Of a DNA stretch of 64,000 nt, positions 1 to 9,113 are shown piece after piece. The position numbers were made by a program, and so were the translations under genes. Position 1 is the stretch's first letter. Every line of letters begins with the position of its first letter. Origin of the DNA: Bacillota bacterium. Lineage in GTDB: Bacteria > Bacillota > Sulfobacillia > JABLXB01. The DNA lies in the NCBI GenBank assembly GCA_013178305.1, contig JABLXB010000001.1:936253-1000252 (forward strand), in the 5' to 3' direction. Under the pieces are notes generated by a model. That model was not told where the DNA came from and made no database searches. It was given only the letters and a program-made list of their open reading frames with translations.

Positions 1-43
1 CACTGCCTCCCCTCCAGCAGCCAGCGCAACAATAAAATGCTGC

Positions 44-1780
44 TCAGTACTCCACCGGGCGACACCTGCGTTCGCGGCAGTATTCGTCCAGGTCTAATCC
101 CTCCGGCAGACTGCCTCGTTGCTCAATGAATATCCAGTGAAACAAGTCAAACATCATGGCCTCAAGTGGTGTCCCGCAATACTTGCCGAACGGTCCGTCA
201 AACACCCGGTTGGCCGGAAAGGTGCGCACTACATACTCCTCGACTTGCTTGGCCACGTCGCGGATTGCCGCAGGCATCCCCCACTTCTGGCGCAAGACGA
301 CATCCCCAATTCCGTATTTCTCGAGTACCCTCCTGGCTGCACCCCTCAGGACCCTTTTCGTCTCGCCATTCATCACCTTGAGCTCGATGGGAAGGGATAG
401 GGCGAAGTCCGCAACGCTTTCCCCAAGATACGCAGGCCGGATTTCGAACCCGAACGCTGCACTCGACCTGTCGACGCTCCACAAGTGATAGTTCGTGAGA
501 CCGGCTTCCACCAGCAGGTCAAACACGTTGCGCTGGTAGACTCTCTCATCCTCAGGCTGAGGGAAGACTCGCTCGACGAGCCTCGTGACTTCCGGCGATG
601 GCTCACCTATTCGGCCGAGGCGTTCTCGAATTCGGTCGGACAGGCCGAGCGGATGGCAGTAGCTCCAGTAATAACCCCCGAACAGCTCGTCTGCCCCTTC
701 TCCCGAAAAAGCTACCCTTACGTGGTCCGCAATTCTTCTCGACAATAGGTGAAACGCGACTCCCCCGTGGATATCGAACACTCCGCCAGATACGGGGTTC
801 TCGTAATGATAGACGTAGTGCGGTAGTTCTTTCAGGTACTCTTCGGCACCCACCCGAAACTCAGTGTGTATCGAGCCGATGGCGGACGCGACCGCCCTTG
901 CTGGTGAGAGATCGGGTGATTTGAGCGACTCATACAGGGTGAATGTCTGGACCGGCCGTCCAATGACCTCAGACGCCAGCGCCACTAACAGGGACGAATC
1001 GATACCGCCTGACAGGTAAAAGCCCTTTTCGTCATTCCCATGCGTCATCATCTGTTTGAGAGTAGAAGACAGCGCGTTGAGCAGCCTCTTGGATTCGCTG
1101 TCTACGTAATAGGGGCCGTCCGCGAAGCAGGCAGGAGTAGGCTGATAGTATTGCTCGACCTTGACAGACCCCTCCGTTATAATCACCACTGAGCCCGGTG
1201 GAACCTGGAGTATTCCCTCGAAAGCAGTAAGGTCCGGCGAACAAATGAATCCGAATACTGCTGCCTCTTCAAGTGCCTGCCGGTTCACGGCTGGCACAAC
1301 TGAGGGATGCTTGAGAAGCGCCTTGATCTCCGAGGCGAACAAGAGAGCCCCGCCGGACCGGGTATAGAACAATGGCTTGATCCCAAATCGATCCCTGGCC
1401 AGGATCACGCGGTCGCTGTCAATGATCGCGAGTGCAAACATGCCCCGGAGCTTCTGAATGGCTGCCGCACCGTATCGCTCATAAAGCCTGGCAACTGTCT
1501 CTACCTCGCTTACCTCGCTTGGTGGGCAATCAAGCAGCGACTGCAGCTGGCGGTAGTTGTAGATCTCCCCGTTGAGCAGAACCGCGAGCCTCTTGTCACC
1601 GGATATCAGTGGTTGCCTGCCGCGGTCGTTCCCGACGAGGGAAAGCCGGGCGACGCCGACAGAATACCTGGGGGTTACGACAACCTCGGAGTCATCGGGG
1701 CCGCGGTGTGCAACGGCCTGAAGCATGTCGTCTATAACTTGCGGATTCGACTCACCGTAGATCCCGCAGATCCCGCACAC
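44..1780 (-). CDS. AsnB-type glutamine-dependent amidotransferase, last gene of the RiPP operon
   Basis: Asparagine synthase (glutamine-hydrolysing) family, 578 aa, normal full length. The protein begins MCGICGIYG, so after Met removal Cys2 is the nucleophile of an intact class II glutaminase domain (about residues 2-200). The synthetase half carries the ATP-pyrophosphatase loop SGGIDSS near residue 256. The family activates a carboxylate as an acyl-adenylate and attacks it with ammonia or another amine. The GTG start overlaps the TAG of the upstream gene by one base (TAGTG), so it is translationally coupled to a peptide-modification operon. I infer that it amidates or cross-links the precursor peptide rather than making free asparagine. 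Lasso-peptide cyclases belong to this family, but no lasso protease is present. A housekeeping AsnB role remains possible. Confidence 0.9.
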   Translation of the reverse strand: MCGICGIYGESNPQVIDDMLQAVAHRGPDDSEVVVTPRYSVGVARLSLVGNDRGRQPLISGDKRLAVLLNGEIYNYRQLQSLLDCPPSEVSEVETVARLYERYGAAAIQKLRGMFALAIIDSDRVILARDRFGIKPLFYTRSGGALLFASEIKALLKHPSVVPAVNRQALEEAAVFGFICSPDLTAFEGILQVPPGSVVIITEGSVKVEQYYQPTPACFADGPYYVDSESKRLLNALSSTLKQMMTHGNDEKGFYLSGGIDSSLLVALASEVIGRPVQTFTLYESLKSPDLSPARAVASAIGSIHTEFRVGAEEYLKELPHYVYHYENPVSGGVFDIHGGVAFHLLSRRIADHVRVAFSGEGADELFGGYYWSYCHPLGLSDRIRERLGRIGEPSPEVTRLVERVFPQPEDERVYQRNVFDLLVEAGLTNYHLWSVDRSSAAFGFEIRPAYLGESVADFALSLPIELKVMNGETKRVLRGAARRVLEKYGIGDVVLRQKWGMPAAIRDVAKQVEEYVVRTFPANRVFDGPFGKYCGTPLEAMMFDLFHWIFIEQRGSLPEGLDLDEYCRERRCRPVEY

Positions 1781-2583
1781 TAGCCGGCTCTCCCCCGGAA
1801 GTATTCGAGGGCCTTCGATAGCCCCCAGTACGCATATGCGGAGCCTTCATCGATGAAGTGGTAGGGCCAGAGGCCCGACTCGAGCTGAGTCCGGCACAAC
1901 CAGTCCGCAGCGCGTTCGATGACCTCCGGGTCTGCCTTGTCCGGCCATGATGTCAGACCGACCAGTACTATTCCCGTGCTCCAGGGGTCACTGCCGATGG
2001 GGTGGCCCTTCCAAGGGCCGAATCCGCCGTCGTCATTCTGTTCTCCGTGGAGGTAATGCACTGTACTGGTTACCAGATTGCCATCCGGACACTCGGCGCC
2101 ACAAGCCGACAGAGCTGTCAGGGCAAAACCACCCTTGTAGGTCAGCCTGACCGATTCATCCAAGTCCTTCTTCCAAGCGTACGACAGCCACTCAACCGCC
2201 TTCCGGTCCCGAAACACGGGGAGCATGGTCGCAATGAGGCTGGTCGTTATTATCCTGGGGCCGTCTCTATTCGAGAGTCCCCATCCTCCCGCTTCGTTTC
2301 TCATTGTCCGAAGCCAGTTAATAGCACGCTGCACCTGGACCTCGAATCCTCCCGCCGTCAGCAAAGCCCGAGTGCACCAAACGGTTTCGTCTACGTCTGC
2401 CCACCCGCCGTCAGGTTGCTGGCATTCAGATATCCAATTCGCAAGTTGCGTCTCTGACCCAACAAGAGAAAGGAGCCTAGCCACCCGTACGGGCGGCACT
2501 CTGGGAGCGAAGTCGCGCAGGTTGCCCATCAAAGCCACATAAGTCCGACCAATAACCTGCCGGAGATTCTCTACTTCTATCAT
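1780..2583 (-). CDS. alpha/alpha-toroid (prenyltransferase/squalene-cyclase repeat) protein with DVDE motif
   Basis: 267 aa with repeated QW-like motifs (QPDGGWADVDE, NEAGGWGLSN, NDDGGFGPW, ESGLWPYHF), the signature of the alpha/alpha toroid shared by squalene-hopene cyclases, protein prenyltransferase beta subunits and LanC-like cyclases. It is about the size of a single barrel domain. Residues 63-66 read DVDE followed by T, one residue away from the DXDD(T) acid motif of class II terpene cyclases. No signal peptide or membrane segment is seen. Start ATG overlaps the stop of the 1033-aa gene (ATGA), and its stop overlaps the AsnB start. Its place between a radical SAM RiPP set and AsnB suggests peptide tailoring or ring closure; that function is inference. 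Confidence 0.8.
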   Translation of the reverse strand: MIEVENLRQVIGRTYVALMGNLRDFAPRVPPVRVARLLSLVGSETQLANWISECQQPDGGWADVDETVWCTRALLTAGGFEVQVQRAINWLRTMRNEAGGWGLSNRDGPRIITTSLIATMLPVFRDRKAVEWLSYAWKKDLDESVRLTYKGGFALTALSACGAECPDGNLVTSTVHYLHGEQNDDGGFGPWKGHPIGSDPWSTGIVLVGLTSWPDKADPEVIERAADWLCRTQLESGLWPYHFIDEGSAYAYWGLSKALEYFRGRAG

Positions 2584-5500
2584 GCTTTTTGCTCCGCCAT
2601 CGCACCCACCTTGCGCCGTATCTGGTCGTCAGTCAGCGCCCTGCAAGTGTTGCATATGTAATAGATGCGCTCGGTGGGTCCAAATGTCACATAATGGAAA
2701 GTGCTAGTCCATGAATAAAACTGCCCACAACAAGAACACTTGATCAAGCGCTGTACTGGGTCAACGATCAAGCCCGTGTCGCCGGGCACGACCCTATTCC
2801 GCTTTGCGTGGCCATTCAAGTATTCTTCCAACTGTGTTGCCAGGTGGATCCGGAGCCCTCCAGCCATTTCTTCGCCGAATTCCGAGAGAACAATGAGGGG
2901 CGCGCGCGTCCCGGACCTAGCCATTAGATCTGTCGCCAGCCATAGGATTCCCGGAAAATACAAGTGTTGCTTCCCATGAAGTACGTGGTGCCGAGTACAG
3001 TTCTCATCAAAATAGGACATCATGGGAAACCTTTCAGGTGCGATGCAGCCAACATGCGCGCACACCAAGCCAGAATCCGAATACTCGTTGAAGATGTCTG
3101 GAGTCCACTTAGTATCACAGGGTAATCCGATTGTCCCAACGAGCTCATTCCTGGCTACTAGCCTGAGTTTGAACCCGATGCTATCGCACTTGGAGCTGTC
3201 CTCGTGTATGGCCTTGGTCGGTATGACCTCAACATAGTCGCTGCAGCCCTCGGTCACCCTGACTTGCAGTTGTTTGGCGCCCGGATCGTTCGCGTTCGCG
3301 TCCTCAGTGCTCGCTGGTTCCAGAACCTGCGTATGCTTGAACACGTATCTTGCGCTATCAATTGTGGGTTCAAGCCGTTTCAAGACGCCGGGCGAAAGGC
3401 CAAGAATTACTGGTGCAAAGACCTTACTGTGCTGCTTCCCGATGCTCTTGCTCCGGTTCCTTTCCAATTCGATTAGAAGGTTGGTGATTCTTCCAAAGTC
3501 TTCAATGTGGTCAGGATGATTGTGGGACACGAGGATCGCAGTGATATCACTTATGCGAAATCCCTCGAATATGAAATTCTTTACAAAATCATAGCCAGGG
3601 TCAATTGCAATACCGAGGTCGATCATCCCACTCTCGTTGGTGTGAAACAGAAAGTAGCCCCCGCCTTCAGAAAAAGTGAGCGCGGGCGTGAATGAATTCC
3701 ACCTCTTGAGTACCACAAAGCCCCAACCAGATGGCGTTTTCCAGGTATTGTCCTGTTCATAAAGGAGACGCTGAATGCGCTTGCGATTGGCCGTCAGCAC
3801 TCCGTCGTAATAGTGCCTCATGTCAGCAATCTTGGTGTCTATGCCGTTAGGAAGAATGGAGTCCTTGTCGCGCTCATGGTACGTACAGTTAGGGCCAAAC
3901 CGGTCGATTGCACGGGCACAGCCCTCGAGGCACTTCAGACTGCATGAGTGCAAGTGTCCCGTCGTCTGGCATTCCGGATTGTCGCTGGGGAAGAACCTCT
4001 TCGCCATGATCTTGCGGATTTCGCGGTGCCTATTGGCCTTTGGCCTCCTGAGACCGAGATCGTGAGCCCATTCCTTGAGTTCCGTGCGCTCAAACACAGT
4101 GAGTGGGGGTTTACGCTCGCCCCGAAGCAACTTCTGCACCAGATCTTTACAGTATTCTCTCCAGTCGCTTTGCATCTGTATTACCTTCGAGCTTACTGTG
4201 GGGCTCTGTGAACTCTTCTCGAGTTGTCTCATTAGCCGTCTCGAATTCTCGGTGAGGCTCGCCCGAAGCTCCTCCGCCAACGGTTGGTACTTATCCTTTG
4301 CCACGGCTACCAAGACCTCATCTTTCACAGGTCCGTCACAACAGAGGTCCAGGTAGTCTTGAACAGCTTGCAGAAGCACGTCGCCCGGCTGATGCAGGCT
4401 ATCAATCACGCGGATAGTCATCTCGCACAGGGGTAGACCCTTGACCCACAAGGACAAGGCCTCTGTCACTTCGGGTTTGTCCTTTTCGTTTTCCCCGATC
4501 TGAGCTTTGATTAGGTCGGCGATGGTCTTGAGAGATTTTCCTCCGTCATCGAGTCCTTTGTTGCCAGCCTCCTCCGATGTCGACTTGACGGTGTTGAGCC
4601 ACCACTTGTATTCCTGTTGTTTCCACTCGATCACAGAAGCACGTTGCTGTGATCGAAGAATCAGGCATTCTGTCTTTGGCTCCAAGAGGTCGCTCACAGT
4701 CTTTTCGAAATCGGGGGCCACAGACGAGTTGACTTCGCCCAAGTCGGATTTAGCCCGCCAAGTGAGTGCCATACGCCTTTCTTTCCAATAGCTAGCGTCG
4801 GGTTTCTCCAAGCTGTCATGCGAGAACACCCTGCTGCGGAGTGACTCCAAGACCCTTAGGGCTTCTTCGGTTCTTTGCATGTTAGTAAGGACATCAGCAG
4901 TCTCCACTGCCGCAGGAATCATTACATAGTAATCGAACAGGCTCTTATCCGAGTCGCCCCACTGCCACCACGAACCGATCCCGTCCCTCCCGAAGTAGTT
5001 GTTGTCTCGTATGGCTTCATGAATCTTGTCAAACTCCCTGAGCGCCTTGTCATGATCACGAACGTGAAAACATGCTTGAGCCTTGTTGTATAGCGCTACC
5101 AGCTCGTAGGGGCTCTCACCACCGCGCTTGCGGTTGTTGCTGCTCTTTAGTGCGGCGTTGAGCAGGTTGAGACTCTGATCTGCATACCCGACTGAAAGGA
5201 AGCCCGTGTAACACTGCGACACCTCATTCAGGTATAGCAGCCTCAAAAGGAACCTCTCACAGTCCCCTCTATTATCGCAGCCTTCCTTACCATCCCACAC
5301 CCTCGAGACCGGCATCTTAGTCGGAGCCTGAGGCAGGTGAGCAAGAAGGTAGAGAGATAGACCGTCAAGTTTCTCAAGGAGATCGGAATCATGGCTCCCC
5401 TGAATCACCGCGCGGGCTCTCTTCGCCGTAATCAGCCTCAGGCAGTCCGGTGACCATTGCTTTGCCTCACCCAGATGATCGGCCACTTCGCCAATCTTGT

Positions 5501-5681
5501 CTTCCAGGTCGATGGTAGAATGTGGGCCCAATTGGGCAAGATGCAAAGGATCAAACGGCCAATCGCGGTCATCTGACGAGAAGTGCCAACCGAGATCATA
5601 TCGTTCCGTATCGATGGCTGAGTCGTACCTGATGCAGAACCGTTCGAATTCGCGGAAGTCCTCTTGCCTCAAGACTTTCAC
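2580..5681 (-). CDS. large metallo-beta-lactamase-fold protein with helical-repeat N-terminus
   Basis: 1033 aa, GTG start six bases after the precursor stop. The first ~550 residues look all-helical and TPR-like (for example the stretch around YNKAQACFHVRDHDKALREF). A Cys/His-rich patch lies near residues 570-620. The metallo-beta-lactamase fold follows, with the metal motif HNHPDH (HXHXDH) at residues 720-725 and further His/Asp (for example CAHVG) downstream. The C-terminus has a CSCC...CNTC zinc-ribbon-like module near residues 980-1015. MBL-fold enzymes are hydrolases or oxidoreductases. Here the gene sits directly after the candidate precursor, so leader cleavage, thiol chemistry or nucleic-acid hydrolysis are all conceivable. 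I recognise no named family for the full-length protein. The function is unknown. Confidence 0.85.
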   Translation of the reverse strand: MKVLRQEDFREFERFCIRYDSAIDTERYDLGWHFSSDDRDWPFDPLHLAQLGPHSTIDLEDKIGEVADHLGEAKQWSPDCLRLITAKRARAVIQGSHDSDLLEKLDGLSLYLLAHLPQAPTKMPVSRVWDGKEGCDNRGDCERFLLRLLYLNEVSQCYTGFLSVGYADQSLNLLNAALKSSNNRKRGGESPYELVALYNKAQACFHVRDHDKALREFDKIHEAIRDNNYFGRDGIGSWWQWGDSDKSLFDYYVMIPAAVETADVLTNMQRTEEALRVLESLRSRVFSHDSLEKPDASYWKERRMALTWRAKSDLGEVNSSVAPDFEKTVSDLLEPKTECLILRSQQRASVIEWKQQEYKWWLNTVKSTSEEAGNKGLDDGGKSLKTIADLIKAQIGENEKDKPEVTEALSLWVKGLPLCEMTIRVIDSLHQPGDVLLQAVQDYLDLCCDGPVKDEVLVAVAKDKYQPLAEELRASLTENSRRLMRQLEKSSQSPTVSSKVIQMQSDWREYCKDLVQKLLRGERKPPLTVFERTELKEWAHDLGLRRPKANRHREIRKIMAKRFFPSDNPECQTTGHLHSCSLKCLEGCARAIDRFGPNCTYHERDKDSILPNGIDTKIADMRHYYDGVLTANRKRIQRLLYEQDNTWKTPSGWGFVVLKRWNSFTPALTFSEGGGYFLFHTNESGMIDLGIAIDPGYDFVKNFIFEGFRISDITAILVSHNHPDHIEDFGRITNLLIELERNRSKSIGKQHSKVFAPVILGLSPGVLKRLEPTIDSARYVFKHTQVLEPASTEDANANDPGAKQLQVRVTEGCSDYVEVIPTKAIHEDSSKCDSIGFKLRLVARNELVGTIGLPCDTKWTPDIFNEYSDSGLVCAHVGCIAPERFPMMSYFDENCTRHHVLHGKQHLYFPGILWLATDLMARSGTRAPLIVLSEFGEEMAGGLRIHLATQLEEYLNGHAKRNRVVPGDTGLIVDPVQRLIKCSCCGQFYSWTSTFHYVTFGPTERIYYICNTCRALTDDQIRRKVGAMAEQKA

Positions 5682-5687
5682 TCCCGT

Positions 5688-5831
5688 CTATCTGCATCCG
5701 TGACAAGACGAGCACTGCCTGCACGCAACCTTCGGCCTGCTAACCTCAATCAGTTCCTGCGGGAACTTCATTGTCTCTTCTTTCTTCACTGTGGGCTTCT
5801 GGTAAGGTCGCTTCTGGGTGACAGTCTTCAC
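5688..5831 (-). CDS. candidate RiPP precursor peptide, 47 aa, C-terminal CX2CX2CX2C core
   Basis: Small GTG-initiated frame. It starts MKTVTQKRPYQKP, has a Lys/Arg-rich leader with a mixed acidic/hydrophobic middle (KFPQELIEV), and ends VACRQCSSCHGCR. Cysteines are at 37, 40, 43 and 46, a perfect three-residue periodicity at the extreme C-terminus. The GTG overlaps the TGA of the PqqD-like gene (GTGA), and GAGGAGGGA lies upstream, so coupling is strong. Size, leader/core layout, and position directly after a radical SAM/SPASM enzyme and a PqqD-type leader-binding protein are those of RiPP precursors. It resembles SCIFF-type Cys-rich precursors in concept but has four rather than six cysteines and a different arrangement. 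Product structure is unknown. Confidence 0.75.
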   Translation of the reverse strand: MKTVTQKRPYQKPTVKKEETMKFPQELIEVSRPKVACRQCSSCHGCR

Positions 5832-6127
5832 GGCTTATCCCTCCTCAGCGCTATGCCCTCATTCACCAAGTCAGCCAACAACTGCTCCACGTCTTTTTGG
5901 GCTACCTCGGCAGTGACTTCGTACTCCTCGGCCAGCAACTCCGCAAGCGTCTCAACGTCGGCCACGCCTTCCGCGGCGATCGACTTGATAACTTGGTAGG
6001 CTTCCCGGTTTACCGAGTAGTGCCTTCCGTCCCTTGTGTTGAACACCCAGTATCTCCCGGCGTCCTCGACCTGACGAAGGGCAACGCCCTCTTTCAGTTC
6101 GTAGACATGTCCGCGTGCTTCCAGCAA
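5828..6127 (-). CDS. PqqD-family peptide chaperone (RiPP recognition element)
   Basis: About 99 aa from a TTG start preceded at seven bases by GGAGGAGG. A longer reading with an upstream ATG is possible, but it would overlap the radical SAM gene by ~97 bp. The body has the PqqD winged-helix pattern: a beta strand around GRYWVFNTRDGRHYSVNREA, then helices ending in EQLLADLVNEGI. PqqD-like proteins bind the leader of a precursor peptide and present it to a radical SAM enzyme. The chosen start overlaps the radical SAM gene by 34 bp, and the stop overlaps the precursor start. The three adjacent genes therefore form the minimal enzyme-chaperone-substrate set. Confidence 0.85.
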   Translation of the reverse strand: MLEARGHVYELKEGVALRQVEDAGRYWVFNTRDGRHYSVNREAYQVIKSIAAEGVADVETLAELLAEEYEVTAEVAQKDVEQLLADLVNEGIALRRDKP

Positions 6128-7152
6128 TGCGGGTCCTCCTCCAGGTAGTCGCCGGTGATGCAGTATGCCATTGCCCTGCATCCCCGGCACAGCGGGGCAA
6201 GTTCACACGCACCGCACTTCCCTTTGAGATTCGACGGATTCCTCACCGACCACAAAACATCAGAATCATACCATGCCTTAAAGACGCCGTCCGTCAATAC
6301 GTTGCCGATCGGGATTGGCAACCGCCTGCAAGGATAGAGCGTCCCATCATGCATGATGGTCAGCGCATTGGTGCCCACGGAACACATCGCGCCAACAGTG
6401 CTGTCCTCCGCATCAATCAGGCAGAAGAGGGGTCGGTGCATCAGCACTCGAATGCGCCTGGTCCCAGTGCCAAACGCATGGACCGTCTTGAAAAGAGCCG
6501 CTGCGTCGTCTCTCGAAAGCACCAGTTCTCGCACCTCTGCACCCGAGCCCTCCGGCACAAACCTCTCCACAGCGAAGGCATCGACTCCTTCGTCCTCCAA
6601 GAAGCGAATCATCTCCGGGACGTGGTCGTTGTTCAGCTTCGACGCCGTCATCATGACACTCACCTGAAAGCCGTGGCCTTTCAGCTCCCTTATGGCTGAC
6701 ACCGTCGTATCGAACGACCCAGTCCCGCGTATGACATCGTTGACTTCACGGTAGGGCGATTCTAGTGACAGTTGCACCCTTCGGAGTTTCGACAGGCGAT
6801 CCAGTCTCTGGAGGTCGCCGCCAGAAAGCAAGGAGCCATTGGTCAAGACATCGTAGTACGTAAACCAGTCGCTCCGATCCATGAGCTCCGCCAACCGGAA
6901 GAGGTCTTCGCGCCTGATGAAGGGCTCCCCGCCAGTCAACGAAGCAGAGCCCGGGCGCTGCCACTGGCGCAGTGCTCCTTCAAGCCGGTGGAAGACCAGA
7001 GTCAGCTGATCAGGTGTGAGTTCGTTTGCGCCGTCGTAAGAATCGTGGTAGCAATGTCTGCAGCGAAGGTTGCACCTCTGGGTGATGTGCCACTGGAAGT
7101 AGAATTCGCCCAGGGAGTTTCCGGTCATCTTGCCCCTTCCGGGCCGTGACAT
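6094..7152 (-). CDS. radical SAM/SPASM peptide-modifying enzyme
   Basis: 352 aa. The radical SAM [4Fe-4S] motif CNLRCRHC is at residues 27-34 (C27, C31, C34), followed by SLTGGEPF, the usual GGE motif for SAM binding. The C-terminus (from about residue 250) has a Cys-rich SPASM domain with MCSVG, YPCRRL and CGACELAPLCRGC, which holds auxiliary Fe-S clusters. This architecture is typical of enzymes that make thioether or carbon-carbon links in peptides. First gene of the six-gene operon. ATG at 7152 has only a weak ribosome site; an ATG eight codons later follows GGAAGGGG and could be the true start. The Cys-rich 47-aa peptide encoded downstream is the likely substrate. No export gene is linked. 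Confidence 0.9.
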   Translation of the reverse strand: MSRPGRGKMTGNSLGEFYFQWHITQRCNLRCRHCYHDSYDGANELTPDQLTLVFHRLEGALRQWQRPGSASLTGGEPFIRREDLFRLAELMDRSDWFTYYDVLTNGSLLSGGDLQRLDRLSKLRRVQLSLESPYREVNDVIRGTGSFDTTVSAIRELKGHGFQVSVMMTASKLNNDHVPEMIRFLEDEGVDAFAVERFVPEGSGAEVRELVLSRDDAAALFKTVHAFGTGTRRIRVLMHRPLFCLIDAEDSTVGAMCSVGTNALTIMHDGTLYPCRRLPIPIGNVLTDGVFKAWYDSDVLWSVRNPSNLKGKCGACELAPLCRGCRAMAYCITGDYLEEDPHCWKHADMSTN

Positions 7153-7427: not shown

Positions 7428-9113
7428 ATGGACGAGAGAACCCTGTACGTCTACGAAACCAACGCTGAGGTCTTCAGCAAGCAGTACCGCTCGGCCGAGC
7501 CGATGCAGCTATATCACCTGATCACGGCCTTCTTCCACCCGGGCGAACCGACGGTCGACATCGGCTCCGGCAGCGGCCGCGATGTCGCCTGGCTCAGCGC
7601 GAACGGTTTCCCGGCGGTGGGATACGATGCCCTGCCCAGGATGGTCGCCGAGGCGCGGGCATCGTACCCCGGCATCGACACCCGCCAGGACAGCCTGCCC
7701 GATCTGAAGACCATCCCCGACAATGCGTACTCCAACGTGTTGTGTTCGGCAACCATAATGCACCTGCCAAGGCAGGACCTCATAACAGCGGCCTTCAACC
7801 TCGCCAGGATACTGAAGCCGGGCGGCCGGCTGATACTCACCTACCGGCCGAGCCAGGCGGATGGAGAACGCGAGGCCGACGGGCGGCTTTACACCAGCAT
7901 TCCACCGGGAAAGCTGGTGCTGCTCCTGGAGTCGACGGGACTGAAGAACCTCGCCGTCGTCAAACAGCGCGACGCCTGGAGACCCGAGATAGCCTGGCAC
8001 GTCATCGTGTCGGAGAAGGGCGCCGACTCACCGGCCCACGGGCTGAACCGGATACAGGGCGTCCTGGTCCAGGACCGGAAAGTCGCCACGTACAAGTTCG
8101 CCCTGATCCGCGCGCTCTGCCACGTGAGCCGCTACGAGCCGCACGTGGCCAGGTGGGGCCGGGACGACGTGTACGTCCCCCTCGCCTCGCTGGCCGTGAG
8201 GTGGCTAATATACTACTGGCCGGTCGTCAACGCCCCCGACTTCATCTCGCAGATGCATGGCGAGAAGCCGGGCGGCAAGAACCTCATCTCTTTCCGCCGG
8301 ACGGTACAGGACCTCGCCGGTTTCTTCGGACTGGACGGCCTGTATGCGGTGCTCAACCACATCGACGAGGAGCCCGGCCTGTACGTCGCCAGCCTGAAGC
8401 GGATCGCCGACGCCATACGATGGGGACCTGTCACCTACGCTGGCACGAAGGGCCCCCGCCTGTTCCGGTTCGTACGCCGCCTCCCCGCCCAGCCCGGCGA
8501 CCACCCAGGCGACAGCGGTCCCGATGACCCCTTTGGATGGGTAGTCGTCCCGCAGCCTATCTGGATGGACATCTCCCGCTTCGACCACTGGATCGAGGAC
8601 AGCATCGTTGTCCGGTGGGCGCAGCTCACCGTGGAAATGAACCCCGGCATCACCATGAGCGAAGTACTGCCCCTCCTGCTGGCGAGCCCTGGAGCCAGAC
8701 GCGGCACGGACGAAGTCCGCCAAATCCTGCGAGCGGCGGACACGGGTCTCGAGTGCGTCTGGAGCGGGCAGCCCCTCAAGGACGACTACAACGTCGACCA
8801 CGTGATCCCGTACTCCGTGTGGGGCAACAGCGACCTGTGGAACATGCTCCCCTGCCTGCCGCGCCTGAACAACGAGAAACGGGACTGCCTGCCCACGCAA
8901 AGGCTGCTCGACCAGCGTGAGGATGCCATCGATTACTACTGGCGGCTCTACCGGTCGCACCTGCCGAAGCGGTTCGATACCCAGGTGCGGCGCGCCCTGG
9001 GGTCGACAACGACGTCCGCGAGCTGGGAGAGGCTCGCGCTGTCCGGTCTCAAGGAGACGGTGGAGAAACTGGCGTCGACGCGGGGACTACTGCGCTGGGA
9101 GCCACGAGGGTAG
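7428..9113 (+). CDS. SAM-dependent methyltransferase fused to an HNH endonuclease
   Basis: 561 aa. The N-terminal ~190 residues are a class I SAM methyltransferase (motif VDIGSGSGRD near residue 45, then ILKPGGRLILTYRP), closer to small-molecule or UbiE-type enzymes than to DNA methylases. A middle region of ~250 residues is unrecognised. The C-terminus is an HNH nuclease: C at CVWSG, DHVIPYS with Asp457/His458, then WNMLPC and the paired Asn of LNNEKRD. No signal peptide. It stands alone, divergent from the RiPP operon and facing a decayed toxin-antitoxin region. A defence or mobile-element role is plausible but inferred. ATG at 7428 follows GGGGGCG. Confidence 0.85.
   Translation: MDERTLYVYETNAEVFSKQYRSAEPMQLYHLITAFFHPGEPTVDIGSGSGRDVAWLSANGFPAVGYDALPRMVAEARASYPGIDTRQDSLPDLKTIPDNAYSNVLCSATIMHLPRQDLITAAFNLARILKPGGRLILTYRPSQADGEREADGRLYTSIPPGKLVLLLESTGLKNLAVVKQRDAWRPEIAWHVIVSEKGADSPAHGLNRIQGVLVQDRKVATYKFALIRALCHVSRYEPHVARWGRDDVYVPLASLAVRWLIYYWPVVNAPDFISQMHGEKPGGKNLISFRRTVQDLAGFFGLDGLYAVLNHIDEEPGLYVASLKRIADAIRWGPVTYAGTKGPRLFRFVRRLPAQPGDHPGDSGPDDPFGWVVVPQPIWMDISRFDHWIEDSIVVRWAQLTVEMNPGITMSEVLPLLLASPGARRGTDEVRQILRAADTGLECVWSGQPLKDDYNVDHVIPYSVWGNSDLWNMLPCLPRLNNEKRDCLPTQRLLDQREDAIDYYWRLYRSHLPKRFDTQVRRALGSTTTSASWERLALSGLKETVEKLASTRGLLRWEPRG

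Follow-up and report, generated by a model that had tools for sequence, protein, structure and literature searches.

The locus described here raises the question of whether a short reading frame that ends in four evenly spaced cysteines is a gene and, if so, what its product is for. The frame lies at 5688-5831 on the minus strand of the window, which here denotes the whole 64,000-nucleotide stretch analysed, and its 47-residue translation from a GTG start is MKTVTQKRPYQKPTVKKEETMKFPQELIEVSRPKVACRQCSSCHGCR, with the C-terminal end ACRQCSSCHGCR. The initial annotation had proposed this frame without naming a strand, and both its extent and the overlap of its start with the stop codon of the PqqD gene (GTG and TGA share bases as GTGA) proved correct; the remark that it is too short for standard ORF calling was overstated, 47 residues being short but callable. 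The frame and the genes around it are arranged in the window as follows.

1..3, minus strand: 5' end of a GT4-like glycosyltransferase gene that continues past the window edge (L029:17228-18256, minus)
44..1780, minus strand: glutamine-hydrolysing asparagine-synthase-type enzyme (asn_synth_AEB 298.8, cut-off 267.1)
1780..2583, minus strand: alpha/alpha-toroid protein with the class II terpene cyclase fold (invariant R106, D107, Y149, K150 and H242)
2580..5681, minus strand: 1033-aa MBL protein, the swappable hydrolase, with a TPR-like N-terminus, an RNase Z/YhfI-like MBL fold and a C-terminal Cys4 zinc-ribbon-like element
5688..5831, minus strand: putative precursor peptide gene, 47 aa, with a leader containing Y10..P13 and M21xF23 and a core C37RQCSSCHGCR47
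5840..5846, minus strand: Shine-Dalgarno sequence of the precursor, GAGGAGG (including GGAGG), assigned from sequence
5828..6190, minus strand: longest frame of a PqqD-like RRE or peptide chaperone (Pfam PqqD 6.2e-11; homologues at the same place)
6094..7152, minus strand: radical SAM/SPASM maturase, 352 aa, with CX3CX2C and seven SPASM cysteines

The cysteine pattern is difficult to attribute to chance. The CX2CX2CX2C motif to which the initial annotation had drawn attention occurs once in the six frames of the 64-kb window, in the precursor itself, whereas first-order shuffled windows lead one to expect 0.017 occurrences per window and contained none within 3 aa of a stop. Across 684 kb of related loci and control stretches, the motif was found next to a stop 18 times, and all 18 cases were the precursor gene. 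No family in Pfam or NCBIfam covers the 47-aa peptide; a match to the Mcm10 zinc finger (Pfam E 0.023) was below cut-off and was rejected as its identity. Literature searches on the Cys motif, on the cassette, or on PqqD with phage defence returned nothing relevant.

Relatives were reached through the radical SAM protein by scanning one genome per species, which yielded 26 loci. Every intact locus with enough contig downstream carries an ORF of 43-54 aa about 270-370 bp after the radical SAM gene, terminating in C[RKLV]QCS[SG]CHGC plus one or two residues, and a Shine-Dalgarno sequence precedes most of the starts. Apart from the window, 17 distinct loci hold the precursor at the same place, with an invariant CxQCSxCHGC tail and Y..P in the leader; they cover about 10 nominal phyla, archaea included, the nominal taxonomy of single MAG contigs being indicative only. 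The loci without a precursor are explained by contig-end cuts, by a remote radical SAM protein (L026) or by a chimeric frame (L021). Since L013 and L014, from different MAGs, are identical over 16,984 bases, they were counted once, giving 18 distinct precursors together with the window. In these 18, the invariant residues are Y10, P13, C37, Q39, C40, S41, C43, H44, G45 and C46. Within the window's own phylum, two divergent precursors retain this leader but end in WCFGCTNCNCN, so that Y10 and P13 (YxxP) are kept in 20 of 20. Two peculiarities of the collection can be recorded here. L013 and L014 are identical over the whole locus although their MAGs are named Syntrophaceae and Ignavibacteriales, which implies at least one binning error, and L021:1454-2611 is a single frame that fuses an N-terminal radical SAM part directly to a C-terminal toroid part, by deletion or assembly collapse.

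Short frames ending in CX2CX2CX2C are thus found after homologous PqqD genes, as the initial annotation had anticipated, and both the frame and its Cys pattern persist in relatives. The pattern is, however, the opposite of its expectation of a conserved leader and a varying core: the core hardly changes, whereas in the leader only Y..P and M.F are stable. In the core, mean pS is 0.93 against a pN of 0.10, with synonymous sites saturated; the peptide must therefore be translated and subject to selection. A single copy of the gene is present in 18 of 19 genomes. Kept position, leader motif and Cys pattern (17 further loci and the two divergent ones) strongly support precursor status, and on sequence grounds the ORF is very probably the conserved precursor of a radical SAM/PqqD cassette of RiPP type. 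The best reading would be a new RiPP-type family in which the core is conserved rather than variable.

The proteins encoded upstream suggest how such a precursor may be processed. The ten cysteines of the maturase (the three-Cys motif and the seven-Cys SPASM set) are invariant in 20 homologues, and the solved structures closest to it are those of SkfB, MoaA and CteB, of which SkfB and CteB are maturases that form Cys thioethers. The true start of the PqqD-like protein is probably near residue 25, since its relatives have 90-104 aa in most loci. In addition, YxxP is a published RRE recognition motif (PMC12710340). PqqD would accordingly bind the YxxP leader and present the tail to the radical SAM enzyme, which would join Cys sulfurs to nearby backbone carbons in thioethers resembling those of sactipeptides and ranthipeptides; such cross-linking within the core is the most likely chemistry, held at about even confidence. 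The cassette shares with those systems (SkfB and CteB/SCIFF type) a radical SAM/SPASM maturase, a short Cys-rich precursor and an RRE/PqqD, but differs from them in a core that is near-identical across nominal phyla, in its toroid, asparagine-synthase and GT4 partners, and in a maturase that reaches the cut-off of none of the best 25 NCBIfam families (for instance, AlbA 62.7 of 850 and PapB 61.6 of 340 bits). The best of these matches, at 179 bits, is to the ACGX system (TIGR04340); it remains below the 400-bit cut-off, and the peptide here is CX2C-spaced and has no ACGX repeat.

The same tail could instead serve as a metal or Fe-S binding element, in the manner of a mini-ferredoxin, a zinc knuckle or a metallophore, with the radical SAM enzyme performing an epimerisation, a C-C link or nothing on the cysteines. 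The CXXCXXCXXC spacing with an invariant His does resemble metal-binding motifs, a near-invariant core suits a fixed coordination geometry, and the cassette hydrolases are metal enzymes. However, linkage to PqqD and to a seven-Cys SPASM enzyme implies covalent modification of the peptide, and two of the enzyme's nearest solved relatives make Cys thioethers; metal or Fe-S binding by the tail is the less likely reading.

Clustering of neighbouring ORFs defines a conserved set of radical SAM protein, PqqD, precursor and toroid protein, usually accompanied by the asparagine-synthase-type enzyme and GT4, and the last three proteins may tailor the peptide further. The toroid model (pLDDT 92.8) matches squalene-hopene cyclase with Z 27.2 and an rmsd of 2.4 over 253 residues. 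Terpene cyclase activity was nevertheless rejected because the DxDD catalytic acid is not conserved, 18 homologues showing D, E, P, R, V or G at the aligned position, and the absence of any invariant Cys makes a farnesyltransferase-type zinc site unlikely. In other loci, the asparagine-synthase-type enzyme often lacks the glutaminase domain and has 270 aa, and the two divergent cassettes have no gene for it. A discrete PqqD-like RRE, a YxxP leader motif and an asparagine-synthase-type enzyme are also features of lasso pathways, but the short ORF here ends in Cys4, its core CRQCSSCHGCR has no Asp/Glu acceptor, the enzyme reaches 137 of the 525 bits required for lasso cyclase NF033535, and no conserved B2-type leader peptidase family was found in the neighbourhood clusters, for which part of the ORFs were scanned. 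If the window peptide is modified by this enzyme in its core, which has neither Asp nor Glu, the C-terminus would be the sole carboxylate available.

In the window, the gene immediately downstream of the precursor encodes the hydrolase whose type is exchanged between cassettes. In ten cassettes it is an MBL-domain protein of about 1000 aa. Its metal ligands are invariant as a full set (H720, H722, D724, H725, H826, D856 and H906), and its fold matches are YhfI, RNase Z, Apyc1 and PqqB, with PqqB and RNase Z in one tied group; the TPR part is poorly modelled (mean pLDDT 60.8), hence no fold is claimed for it. Five cassettes have a 600-aa protein instead, truncated in one of them at a contig end; the four that were compared share an invariant HD-type ligand set. 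Two have PHP together with a dGTPase-like HD protein, and the two divergent ones have an amidohydrolase. An archaeal MAG holds two cassettes, L018 and L019, whose radical SAM proteins are nearly identical but whose hydrolases are MBL and HD, respectively. The divergent cassettes (L036:1199-7906 and L037:3148-7620) show further variation, both holding a B12-type radical SAM-like protein beside the amidohydrolase, which in L037 has a GNAT domain; L036 additionally holds a second radical SAM protein and a methyltransferase.

An MBL protein with a PqqB fold match, together with a precursor, PqqD, a radical SAM/SPASM enzyme and a glycosyltransferase, also parallels the parts of a pathway to a peptide-derived redox cofactor such as PQQ or mycofactocin, and a fixed core sequence would fit such a product. 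PQQ biosynthesis (PqqA/B/D/E) likewise places precursor, PqqD, radical SAM/SPASM and MBL-fold protein in one operon. In contrast to that system, the core here has no Glu or Tyr, and the MBL domain is fused to TPR-like repeats, can be replaced by HD proteins and is missing from about half of the cassettes. The maturase falls below the NCBIfam cut-offs for PqqE (70.4 of 381 bits) and for the mycofactocin radical SAM protein (102.5 of 265 bits), and homology to PQQ biosynthesis was rejected on cut-offs even though PqqB is among the MBL fold matches. Furthermore, no conserved dehydrogenase partner was seen, and the cassette is rare and patchy in distribution, with strong cases in 3 of 398 genomes of the window's own phylum (two of the three divergent) and in 2 of 395 of another. 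A cofactor pathway is therefore improbable.

Defence genes are common around the cassette. Its G+C content is lower (55.5%) than that of the remaining window (60.7%), and transposase-like genes were read past the GT4 gene. No relatives were found in phages, plasmids or IMG/VR, so carriage on phages or plasmids is unsupported. A full-length IIG enzyme adjoins the window's cassette; Hma genes adjoin L005 and L018, DUF1156/helicase genes L012 and a type I RM system L016, BREX with bSEFIR and a GajA-like gene surrounds L037, and weaker or single matches occur at L007, L015, L019 and L022. On the same strand as the cassette, the defence system ends 106 bp upstream of it in L005 and about 400 bp upstream in L012. 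Altogether, full-length systems neighbour 6 of 18 loci and any defence match 10 of 18. With PADLOC at 1e-15, 110 flanking ORFs gave 362 families, and 80 control ORFs, mostly from the same genomes, gave 49. The window's cassette genes themselves produced just a weak viperin match (generic radical SAM), and the dGTPase-type HD protein of L013 is the only strong PADLOC match among cassette proteins. Two other genes deserve mention. At 7428-9110 on the plus strand of the window, divergent from the cassette, a SAM methyltransferase domain is fused to an HNH_4 nuclease domain with a weak Cas9d-like HNH match. At L029:11502-12899 (plus strand), a HATPase-like protein whose C-terminal stretch matches PADLOC PDC-S35 ends near a transposase and is possibly a broken defence gene.

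Published data temper the weight of this neighbourhood. Defence systems were found in 6 of 200 random regions and beside lanthipeptide clusters about five times as often (PMC12715929). Set against such backgrounds, 6 of 18 loci would be unlikely at 3% (1e-5) and only mildly unlikely at 13% (0.02), an enrichment that is suggestive only, because the criteria differ from those of that study and the loci were read by eye. As RiPP clusters generally co-locate with defence genes (PMC12715929), the neighbourhood is weak evidence of function. It would also suit a secreted antimicrobial or signalling RiPP on an island that merely also carries defence genes, for which the usual presence of a glycosyltransferase and the ABC exporter genes upstream in L013 could be cited. 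Against secretion, the neighbourhood ORF clusters of the loci contain no conserved exporter, leader protease or immunity gene, the core is invariant rather than diversified, and each cassette has an exchangeable metal-dependent hydrolase, which makes such a product unlikely. That no leader protease was found to release the core also counts against the RiPP reading itself. Because neither an exporter nor a protease is conserved, the modified product probably acts inside the cell, where it may partner the hydrolase.

A role of the peptide as modified partner or trigger of the hydrolase in a mobile conflict or defence module is suggested because near-identical cassettes hold different hydrolases (MBL, HD, dGTPase-HD with PHP, amidohydrolase) and often adjoin anti-phage systems; it is the most likely of the functions considered, at a confidence short of even, and the conflict or defence role is plausible but unproven. 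The FtsH ternary conflict systems (Kaur et al., 2020; PMC7159879) offer a precedent, since a radical SAM enzyme there reportedly modifies a peptide effector, but no vWA, MoxR or FtsH genes were seen in the cassette loci. A more specific version of the partner reading is possible, though tentative: a RiPP with a fixed, enzymatically locked Cys4 core could serve interchangeable hydrolases that cleave nucleic acids or nucleotides as their dedicated partner, whether activator, inhibitor or covalent cofactor, and would then belong to intracellular immunity instead of being secreted as an antibiotic.

In RiPPs, the core normally varies while the leader stays conserved. The tail described here is almost frozen across bacteria and archaea despite a rare, mobile cassette, which suggests a single unchanging molecular target or geometry. 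What makes the family interesting is this frozen core, its occurrence in many nominal phyla, a hydrolase that can be exchanged and neighbours with defence functions. Should the swapped hydrolases be effectors, the peptide would represent a RiPP employed as an intracellular immune component. An undescribed peptide-modification system, possibly with an antiviral role, probably uses this peptide as its substrate.
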